The notes below the pieces were generated by a model. It was not told the DNA's origin. It saw nothing but the letters and a program-made list of their open reading frames with translations, and made no database searches. A program made the position numbers and the translations under genes. From the NCBI RefSeq assembly GCF_002285795.1, contig NZ_CP022961.1:310001-374000 (forward strand): a stretch of 64,000 nucleotides of DNA. Direction: 5' to 3'. The stretch is from Plantactinospora sp. KBS50 (lineage in GTDB: Bacteria; Actinomycetota; Actinomycetes; Mycobacteriales; Micromonosporaceae). This document shows positions 42,001-44,801 of the stretch, piece by piece (position 1 is the first letter of the stretch; every line of letters starts with the position of its first letter).

Positions 42001-43275
42001 ATGATGCCGGTATCCATGGTGGGACGGGCGGCTGAACTCGCCGAGTTCACCCGCGCGTGGAGCCGGGTGGTGGCCGGCCGCCGGCTCGGCGTGCCGCGCA
42101 CGGTGGTGCTCACCGGCGACGCCGGGGTCGGCAAGAGCCGGCTGGTGGACGCCGCGCTGGACGCGCTCGCCCCGCGCCCGCCGCTGGTCCTGTCCGGCGC
42201 GGCCCGGGTGCACAGTCCCGCGCCGTACGACTGGCTGGCCGCCGTACTGAGCGGACACGACGCCGACGCGCTGCCGCTGCCGGCGGATGCGCTCGCCTGG
42301 CTCGCCCAGCAGCCCACCGCGCCCCGGGAACGCTACGCACCGGCAACGCTGTTGCGGCTGGCCGTGCGTACCGTCCGGCTGCTGGTCGGCGCCGGTCCGG
42401 CGGTCGTGGTGGTGGAGGACCTGCACGCGCTCGACCCGGCCAGCCTCAACCTGATCGGCGAGTTGGCCACCGCCGCCGACCTGCGGGTGCTGCTGGTGGT
42501 GGCCAGCCGGCCCCCGGAGGTCGCGGTCTCGCCGCAGCTCACGGCCCGGACCCTGGCCCGGCTGAGCGGTACGCGGGGCAGCGTGCGGCAGCACCTCGGC
42601 CCGCTCCGTCCGGCCGAGGTGGCCGAGATCCTGCGGCAGGTGCACCCCGGCGCGGTACGCCCCGAGGCGGCGATGGCGCTCTGGCGGCGTACCGGGGGAA
42701 ACCCGTACCTGATCACCGAGCTGCTGGCGACGGCCGCGGCCGACGATCCGGCGGCGCTGTTCGGCGGTGACCCGGCGGCGCTGCTGGGCGGCGACCCGGC
42801 GGCGGTGCCGGCGCTGGGCGGGGGCCCGGCCCCGGGCGGTGGCCCGGCTTTGGGTGGTGATCCGGCCCTGGGCGGTGGCCCGGCGCTGGGTGGTGATCCG
42901 GCCCTGGGCGGTGGCCCGGCTTTGGGTGGCGGCCCGGTGCTGGGCGGTGATCCGGCGCGGCGGGTCCGGCTGCCACGCCAGCCGTCGGCGCCGGCCCGCG
43001 AGCCGGTCGCGGCGGGTCCCGGTCACGCCGTCGGCGCTGGCCAGCAGCCGGGCGCGGCCGAGCTGACCGCCCGGGAGCGGGAGGTGCTGGACTGCCTGGC
43101 CGCCGGCATGTCGAACAAGCAGGTGGCCCGGTCGCTGTCGATCTCGGTACGCACCGTCGCGGTGCACGTGTCCAACCTGCTCCGCAAGACCGGTACCGCG
43201 TCCCGGACCGAGGCCGCGCTCTGGGCGCTCCGGCACCGCGCCGCCGAGCCGACGGAACTGGTCGAACGCCGCTGA
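42001..43275 (+). CDS. LuxR-family ATPase transcriptional regulator with a Gly/Pro repeat insert
   Basis: 424 aa. An N-terminal AAA/STAND-like NTPase has Walker A TGDAGVGKS (about 38-46) and Walker B VVVVEDLHALD. A C-terminal LuxR HTH (LTAREREVLDCLAAGMSNKQ, VARSLSISVRTVAVHVSNLL) ends the protein. The usual long LAL-type TPR region is absent. Instead, residues about 255-320 are tandem GGDPALGGGPAL repeats (36-nt units, about 42760-42960), probably a flexible linker. Length is about half that of typical LAL regulators. The target is unknown. Confidence 0.88.
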   Translation: MMPVSMVGRAAELAEFTRAWSRVVAGRRLGVPRTVVLTGDAGVGKSRLVDAALDALAPRPPLVLSGAARVHSPAPYDWLAAVLSGHDADALPLPADALAWLAQQPTAPRERYAPATLLRLAVRTVRLLVGAGPAVVVVEDLHALDPASLNLIGELATAADLRVLLVVASRPPEVAVSPQLTARTLARLSGTRGSVRQHLGPLRPAEVAEILRQVHPGAVRPEAAMALWRRTGGNPYLITELLATAAADDPAALFGGDPAALLGGDPAAVPALGGGPAPGGGPALGGDPALGGGPALGGDPALGGGPALGGGPVLGGDPARRVRLPRQPSAPAREPVAAGPGHAVGAGQQPGAAELTAREREVLDCLAAGMSNKQVARSLSISVRTVAVHVSNLLRKTGTASRTEAALWALRHRAAEPTELVERR

Positions 43276-43302: not shown

Positions 43303-43354
43303 GGGAGTGTGCAGAGTTGTTGTCGCTGGGGCGACAACAACTCTGCACACTCCC
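43303..43354. terminator. 24-bp perfect palindrome between convergent genes
   Basis: Arms at 43303-43326 and 43331-43354 are exact reverse complements around a TGGG loop (core GCAGAGTTGTTGTCGC). It may act as a bidirectional terminator or be a dispersed palindromic repeat. Its AT-richer arms differ from the local sequence. Confidence 0.7.
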
Positions 43355-43364
43355 CAGCCGCGGC

Positions 43365-43793
43365 TCAGGACTCGGCGGCGAGTTCGCCCACCGGGACCGC
43401 CAGCTCCACGACGCCGTCGCGGACCCGCGCGATCTGCTCGGCCCCGGCGTACCGGTCGCCGTCGACAGCGCCGGGCGCGTTGCGATCCGGGATCGGGTCG
43501 GGCGTGTCCCGGCCGGCGATCGGGCCGGGCGGATCGATCTTCAGGTAGCCGGTCCGTAGCAGGCGCGCGGCGAGGTCGGCCGGCACGTCCGGCTCGTCGC
43601 CGGAGTCGGTGTGCGGCACCCGGCCGGCCAGCACGCCGGCGCCCTCGGGCGGCTCCTGCGCGGTCACCGCGTTCGGGTCGCCGGTGCGTACCTCGGCGAC
43701 CTTCCCGATCTCCCGGCCGGTCGCGTCGACGACCCGCATGCCGGTGGTGACCTGGCCGATCGGCTGGGCGGAGGTGGAGCTGTCGGGCTGCAT
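43365..43793 (-). CDS. PRC-barrel/DUF2171-like small protein
   Basis: 142 aa from the ATG at 43793. The start IGQVTTGMRVVDATGREIGK-VAEVRTGDPNAVTAQ matches PRC-barrel-like DUF2171 proteins, and the acidic C-terminal half (VVELAVPVGELAAES) closes the barrel motif. Cytoplasmic, function unknown; such proteins are often stress-related in actinobacteria. Confidence 0.72.
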   Translation of the reverse strand: MQPDSSTSAQPIGQVTTGMRVVDATGREIGKVAEVRTGDPNAVTAQEPPEGAGVLAGRVPHTDSGDEPDVPADLAARLLRTGYLKIDPPGPIAGRDTPDPIPDRNAPGAVDGDRYAGAEQIARVRDGVVELAVPVGELAAES

Positions 43794-43875
43794 GGTGGGA
43801 CCGGTTCCCGGCCGCTCCACCGGCTAAACCGGGCATTCGAGCCGTTCGGGTGGAGTGGCCGACCGACCCACATAG

Positions 43876-43891
43876 TCGAACGTATGTTCGA
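43876..43891 (+). promoter_or_regulatory. Perfect LexA/SOS box
   Basis: TCGAAC-GTAT-GTTCGA, identical in both half-sites to the actinobacterial LexA operator (TCGAAC-N4-GTTCGA). It ends 12 nt before the ATG at 43904, a position expected to block transcription. Confidence 0.8.
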
Positions 43892-43903
43892 TATGGTGCC
43901 GCC

Positions 43904-44296
43904 ATGGAGCAGCGGAAGCACTGGTGGAACGGCAAATGGGGACGGCTGGCGCGGCGGGACATCTTTCTCCGGGCGGATGCCGACCGGTGGCACGTCGAGC
44001 AGCGTGCGGGCGGGGCCGAGGGCATCTCCCGGTTCTTCGAGTACGACAGCGAGGACGCGGCGTACGAGGCCGTCCGGGCGCTGTTGACCGGCCCGGACAC
44101 CTGGCGCGAGCTGTCGCCCCGCCCACCGGCGCCGCCCCGTCCGCCCGCATCGCCCCGCCCGCCGGCGCCGCCCGGCCCGCCTGGCCTGTCCGTGCCGCCC
44201 GGCCCGCCTGGTTCGTCCGTGCCGCCCGCATCGCCCGGCTCGTCCGTGCCGCCCGGCCCGCCTGGTTCGTCCGTGCCGCCCGGCCCGCCGGCCTAG
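43904..44296 (+). CDS. Small SOS-box-controlled protein with Pro-rich tail
   Basis: 130 aa. The first 70 residues form a compact basic domain (HWWNGKWGRLARRDIFLRAD, then WHVEQRAGGAEGISRFFEYD and DAAYEAVRALLTG). The rest is a repetitive Pro/Gly/Ser tail (PPGPPGSSVPP units). No family was recognised. The LexA box just upstream strongly suggests induction on DNA damage. The Trp-rich basic start could bind nucleic acid or protein; this is speculation. Confidence 0.72.
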   Translation: MEQRKHWWNGKWGRLARRDIFLRADADRWHVEQRAGGAEGISRFFEYDSEDAAYEAVRALLTGPDTWRELSPRPPAPPRPPASPRPPAPPGPPGLSVPPGPPGSSVPPASPGSSVPPGPPGSSVPPGPPA

Positions 44297-44309
44297 GCCG
44301 GCGCCGGTG

Positions 44310-44762
44310 TCACCGGCCCTGCTGGCGTTCCTGGCCGAGCAGGTCGTCCAGCGCCCGGCGGCTCTGCTCGGGGGTCCGGCCCTGGGCGAGCAGCGCGTCC
44401 CGGATCTCGGTGAGCAGCCTGATCTCCTCGCTCGGCGCGGCCGGCGGCGGCTCCTCGCCGCGCTTGCGCCGCTCGGCCAGCTTGTTCATCGGAAAGACCA
44501 CGAGGAAGTACAGGGTGGCGGCGGTGAGCAGGAAGGTGATCGCGGCGTTGAGGAAGGTGGCGTAGTCGAACACGACGCCGTCCCGGACCTCCCAGGCGCC
44601 GGCCGCGACCCCTTCGCCGCCACCGACGAGCTGGATCAGTGGCTTGAGGAACGAGTCGGTGAACGCGCCCACCAGTGCGGTGAAGGCCGCGCCGACCACG
44701 ACACCGACCGCGAGGTCGATGACGTTTCCGCGCATGATGAAGTCTTTGAAGCCCTTGAGCAT
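44310..44762 (-). CDS. mscL: Large-conductance mechanosensitive channel MscL
   Basis: 150 aa. Classic MscL layout: N-terminal amphipathic helix MLKGFKDFIMRGNVIDLAVG, TM1 VVVGAAFTALVGAF, a periplasmic loop, TM2 AAITFLLTAATLYFLVVFPM and a charged cytoplasmic helix (LLTEIRDALLAQ). It forms a homopentameric emergency pore opened by membrane tension during hypo-osmotic shock. The ATG at 44762 follows GGGAG; a GTG 6 nt earlier is possible. Confidence 0.96.
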   Translation of the reverse strand: MLKGFKDFIMRGNVIDLAVGVVVGAAFTALVGAFTDSFLKPLIQLVGGGEGVAAGAWEVRDGVVFDYATFLNAAITFLLTAATLYFLVVFPMNKLAERRKRGEEPPPAAPSEEIRLLTEIRDALLAQGRTPEQSRRALDDLLGQERQQGR

Positions 44763-44801
44763 GCCCACTCCCGCACTGTCCGGTTGACCGTCGCGGAGAC
44801 C

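Follow-up and report, generated by a model that had tools for sequence, protein, structure and literature searches.

The 130-aa protein encoded at positions 43904-44296 of the window, the 64,000-nucleotide stretch of Plantactinospora sp. KBS50 DNA analyzed here, is best read as a member of a new family of SOS effectors, and it may be a minimal WGR-like protein that acts at sites of DNA damage. Repression of its gene by LexA, with induction upon DNA damage, is highly probable from the operator and its conservation, and we infer that the gene is a damage-response factor, as the sequence-only reading had suggested. A perfect SOS box is separated by 12 nt (43892-43903) from the ATG at 43904. The coordinates claimed for this arrangement were verified, and the box is one of three perfect operators in the genome (6.69 Mb, one contig), where the reversed pattern has none. 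A pattern scan found it to be the sole perfect match in the window, with nine others carrying two mismatches. Since near-miss boxes occur in excess of chance (10 window matches with at most two mismatches against a shuffle mean of 1.95; 49 genome sites with at most one mismatch against eight for the reversed pattern), we placed weight only on perfect or conserved sites. The exact box joined to TANNNT, with no mismatch, occurs once in the genome, ahead of the 130-aa gene. The operator at this promoter fits the actinobacterial LexA consensus in the excerpted text of PMC9380542, where the Streptomyces venezuelae LexA motif is tCGAAC-N4-GNNCGa.

Table 1 Positions of the SOS-box gene, its promoter elements and its neighbors in the window
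Feature	Position	Strand	Basis
LexA operator (SOS box) TCGAACGTATGTTCGA, both half-sites perfect	43876..43891	+	Sequence, genome scan, kept in homologues
-10-like element TATGGT directly 3' of the box	43892..43897	+	Sequence, column conservation (TAnnGT in homologues)
Conserved 70-aa core	43904..44113	+	Alignments; model of four strands and one helix
Pro/Gly/Ser tail and stop codon	44114..44296	+	Tandem repeats 44115-44181 and 44167-44289
mscL neighbor	44310..44768	-	PF01741
Gene for a small protein that weakly matches DUF2171 (E 0.0066, short of the curated cut-off)	43365..43820	-	Pfam

Promoter anatomy was examined in an alignment of 24 loci from 22 genomes and 22 genera (taken from 30, leaving out three type-B loci, described below, and three missed by the script). 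Information content is 1.3-2.0 bits in the half-site columns and no more than 0.7 bit in those 5' of the box, where 40 nt are unconserved. Apart from the box, conservation upstream of the gene is confined to TAnnGT, which lies directly 3' of the box and about 6 nt before the start codon. No conserved -35 or ribosome-binding sequence is seen in the columns of this alignment. A scan for promoters gave no sigma-70 candidate with a -35 element, which fits a -10-only pattern without proving it. The restriction of conservation to the box and TAnnGT suggests a leaderless promoter that is blocked by LexA, and the spacing makes a leaderless start of the transcript likely.

The second perfect operator in the genome lies ahead of an AlkB-type 2OG-Fe(II) oxygenase gene (PF13532), and alkB is a LexA target in S. 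venezuelae too, according to excerpts of PMC9380542. The third (C1:1750980-1750995) lies in the intergenic region of a LysM gene and the divergently oriented lexA, which was identified by matches to LexA_DNA_bind and Peptidase_S24. The listed LysM start is 15 nt away from this box and the listed lexA start about 230 nt away, and a weaker box lies closer to lexA. A box near a LysM start beside lexA is the arrangement of known SOS division-inhibitor genes. LexA and RecA are both encoded in the genome, and recA (C1:1714412-1716286) has the box TCGTACACGTGTTCGG upstream, with 10 of the 12 bases. The recA gene forms a single open frame of 771 aa; an insertion of ~350 aa in it has Cys at its start and His-Asn at its end before Ser and is apparently an intein. 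Among the one-mismatch boxes (11 regions of 46 inspected), a clear SOS-type arrangement was seen only at a PNPOx-like gene (C1:117899-117914), where the box TCGTACACCCGTTCGA is followed by TAAGAT, six bases, and ATG, and this gene is a candidate second leaderless SOS gene. The combination of box and TANNNT with one mismatch is found ahead of this gene, with the same spacing, and once in the lexA/LysM region.

Retention of the SOS box by orthologues was a check set beforehand, and the box was indeed retained. With a criterion of at least 10 of the 12 half-site bases, it is present in 114 of 120 distinct homologous loci (57 perfect, 56 with one mismatch, and one with two mismatches) and absent from six. 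At the same criterion, none of 120 downstream control stretches (one of which had no sequence) and 3 of 120 far-upstream ones qualified. The count of 120 leaves aside 17 duplicates and eight loci passed over by the scoring script (L033, L034, L040, L042, L043, L096, L114, and L117), and these eight all have boxes of 11-12 bases. When repeats of the same place are included, the box is found in 139 of 145 loci; a script scored 133 of these, and the other six (L033, L042, L043, L096, L114, and L117) were identified by manual reading. The homologues were collected from relatives (28 of 61 genomes), from named genomes (the best 80 of 175 with a relative), and from later profile searches. The distance from box to start is mostly 12-15 nt. 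TCGTAC is the common variant half-site, occurring in 49 of the 114 boxes, and a dnaE2 site starting with TCGTAC is validated in S. venezuelae in the excerpted text of PMC9380542. All of 20 further distant homologues, lower-scoring matches of which 18 are diverged Micromonosporaceae paralogues and two come from another family in the same order, carry a box of 10-12 bases at most 41 nt before the matched stretch, with controls reaching a maximum of 8 of 12.

The six boxless loci (L037, L038, L039, L129, L130, and L131) form one paralogue subgroup, type B. All six type-B paralogues examined are without the box, and the KWGR segment is also missing. A second copy of the family in the KBS50 genome (C1:1271276-1271479, L129) belongs to type B, with 43% identity and no SOS box.

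The family is common in Micromonosporaceae and rare elsewhere. With subgroups pooled, matches were found in 210 of 250 Micromonosporaceae genomes and 34 of 42 genera, in 54 of 298 genomes of an order sample (including three genomes of a single genus in a second family), and in 3 of 344 and 3 of 396 genomes of class and phylum samples, all Micromonosporaceae; the first look of this search scores only some candidates and may miss others. The core has no match in Pfam, where no family was found at E up to 10, in NCBIfam, or among PDB sequences. The view that the protein has no recognized repair or division domain is borne out by negative searches of Pfam, NCBIfam, and PHROGs. The PHROGs matches (best E 0.031) look like chance, and a phage match annotated as a dGTPase inhibitor (E 0.4, 70% of the query, 37.7% identity) was also taken as chance. 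A plasmid search gave no match, and a mobile origin of the gene is unsupported. No paper on the family was found among the open-licence PMC titles and abstract starts listed, and the family is not named in the excerpts of PMC9380542 on S. venezuelae LexA.

The residues W7, W8, N9, R17, D19, W29, V31, E32, G36, G37, A53, and W67 are invariant in alignment A1, and in a set of 39 diverse members the fully or almost fully conserved residues are W7, W8, N9, R17, D19, W29, V31, G36, G40, A53, and W67. The core had been described as a basic Trp-rich domain, but taken over all of its 72 residues it is not basic: the net charge is -1, with +5 in residues 1-23 and -4 in residues 48-72. The repetitive Pro/Gly/Ser tail noted in the same reading is present as tandem repeats, mostly a 27-bp repeat (4.6 copies, 86% matches), but it is not conserved, and homologue frames span 75-116 aa (68 scored of 80 loci). 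The tail is a local repeat expansion peculiar to the KBS50 genome and lies outside the conserved protein. A weak Pfam match to Collagen falls on this tail and was rejected.

AlphaFold2 models of the core and of the type-B copy both consist of four strands and one helix, with mean pLDDT values of 92.9 and 92.7, respectively, from alignments that have rows in common. In a structure search, the top solved structures for both models were PARP WGR domains (core, Z 7.1, 71 of 72 residues, 2.5 Å; type B, Z 6.7, 69 of 69 residues, 2.7 Å), and both top Z scores are under 8; models that lack a clear match typically reach a best Z of 7-8 in this search. The first 14 structure rows for the core model are all WGR chains if 2ra8 is included, which is itself a true bacterial WGR (E 1e-17). 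Non-WGR rows follow close behind, with Z of 6.3, 6.2, and 6.1 for the core; for type B, one with Z of 6.2 stands at rank 9 amid WGR rows and another has 6.0. Foldseek against the PDB placed 2ra8 second for the core model and first for the type-B model, and the top match in the Foldseek viral library is a phage protein named WGR (E 0.038, prob 1.00); no match in these Foldseek searches reached E 0.001. On balance, the models, each with four strands and one helix, make a WGR-like fold somewhat more likely than not.

We did not file the protein in the WGR family, since it has no Pfam score and no strand-3 motif and its profile match is non-specific. A PF05406 search of the KBS50 genome gave no matches. 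Strand 3 and its turn, as assigned by DSSP, read WHVEQRAGGAEG and contain no W/Y-G-R motif. The letters WGR at residues 12-14 were considered as the motif and rejected, being located between strands 1 and 2 and not in strand 3. In a weak WGR alignment (prob 10%), the aromatic residue of the motif is opposite Ala and its Arg is opposite a gap. The profile score of the family to WGR is 18.3, a value reached by 0 of 200 column shuffles, while the score of a global profile alignment to WGR was reached by 12 of 200 shuffles. The integrase arm domain (PF14657), with a profile score of 14.6 to the family and an hhalign prob of 2.2%, passed the same shuffle test (0 of 120) and matched WGR better (23.1) than the family of the 130-aa protein did, so the WGR profile similarity was rejected as evidence of homology.

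In excerpts of PMC8190142, the 5'-phosphate contacts of PARP2 are Trp151, Lys130, Lys183, and Tyr201, with Arg153 and Asn127 nearby. The protein may nonetheless work in the manner of a WGR domain, by way of the conserved stretch that connects strands 1 and 2 of the core model; this stretch may lie near the Lys130 region of PARP2, a placement inferred from topology rather than from residue-level alignment. Deinococcus DR2173 has a WGR domain in common with E. coli MolR, according to excerpts of PMC8533742, which also mention membership in the LexA regulon. A WGR-like SOS protein seems less odd because these excerpts link WGR proteins with damage regulons.

In the mechanism we propose, LexA bound to 43876-43891, right against the -10 element, would block transcription. 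After DNA damage, RecA stimulates the self-cleavage of LexA, and this cleavage would free the promoter. A probably leaderless mRNA would then be translated into a small single-domain protein with its genome-specific tail, and the protein would use the conserved segment WWNGxWGRLxRRD to bind damaged DNA at its ends or nicks, or else a repair complex located on such DNA. Action of the protein at damaged DNA is possible but less likely than not, and we hold this part of the mechanism tentatively. As a whole, the explanation by a LexA-repressed SOS effector that is WGR-like and acts at damaged DNA has, in our estimate, slightly less than an even chance. It is doubtful that the protein is, more specifically, a stand-alone motif-divergent WGR-like module that serves as a minimal LexA-switched break cap or sensor and has been multiplied into SOS-controlled Micromonosporaceae paralogues.

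The main rival is that the protein is an SOS-induced small modulator that would bind another protein, such as RecA, LexA, a replisome part, or a division protein, via its acidic helix or Trp-rich strand. DinI, SulA, and SidA are small SOS proteins that act on proteins, and the split charge of the core and the near-invariant W7, W8, and W67 agree with such a role. We nevertheless consider the modulator somewhat unlikely, since the best structural neighbors of both models are DNA-break-binding domains, with no clear margin. A domain of AP2-like or integrase-arm-like sheet and helix that binds a specific DNA sequence is improbable: Plasmodium AP2 domains appear among the structure rows with Z of 6.2 for the core and 6.0 for type B, and the arm profile score exceeds those of all 120 shuffles, but the AP2 rows align only 56 and 53 residues, respectively, whereas the WGR rows are nearly full length.

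The neighborhood of the gene was compared in all loci where tblastn matched the core, 143 when repeats are counted. In 121 of these, mscL precedes the family gene on the same strand; a DUF2171-like gene follows it, likewise on the same strand, in 87; and neither neighbor is in the available stretch in 16. Four Salinispora loci (L106, L108, L111, and L121) have no mscL beside the gene and keep the other neighbor. In the KBS50 genome only (two loci, L016 and L126, which are the same place), the gene is inverted between the same neighbors (window 43820-44310), and the box moved along with the gene in this local inversion relative to both neighbors. No inverted repeat flanks the gene closely enough to account for the inversion. 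That the box serves a neighbor, or is the site of another regulator, and that the 130-aa gene is not SOS controlled is very improbable, although the DUF2171-like gene is divergent from the box in the window, since the same-strand mscL upstream in most loci leaves the box facing the family gene alone, the box mostly keeps its short distance to the gene start, and distant paralogues keep the box. Elsewhere in the window, a perfect 24-nt inverted repeat with a 4-nt loop (43303-43354), with no other copy in the window, lies between two convergent genes and is probably a two-way terminator, and tandem repeats of 18-54 bp (42744-42958) lie inside a LuxR-family regulator gene (42001-43275).

The gene is widespread in a family of antibiotic producers and has stayed tied to its SOS operator through duplication and local inversion. 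The functions of most LexA-bound S. venezuelae genes are unknown, according to excerpts of PMC9380542. With a damage-induced effector of the kind favored here, Micromonosporaceae would gain a marker gene for the SOS response and possibly a break-binding protein of very small size, and the predicted fold suggests a direct role at broken DNA. If the break cap or sensor reading is true, the part that PARP2 uses to bridge DNA ends would occur here as a free small SOS protein.

Among known systems, the AP2-like integrase arm domain (PF14657) resembles the 130-aa protein in the predicted sheet-plus-helix pattern and, weakly, in profile, but its match is shorter, and the 130-aa protein has no integrase partner domain. 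The SOS division inhibitors of LysM type (YneA/ChiZ) differ in that Pfam finds no LysM in the core; a LysM gene adjoins lexA instead. Compared with the WGR domain (PF05406), found in PARP1-3, bacterial WGR proteins, and E. coli MolR, the core may have a similar fold, its model superposing over the full length, but it lacks a Pfam score and the strand-3 W/Y-G-R and forms a stand-alone small protein without a catalytic domain. With the actinobacterial LexA (SOS) regulon, the gene shares the operator sequence and the promoter-proximal position, in a genome with LexA, RecA, and an AlkB-like gene with such operators; it differs in that its protein belongs to a family without assigned function.
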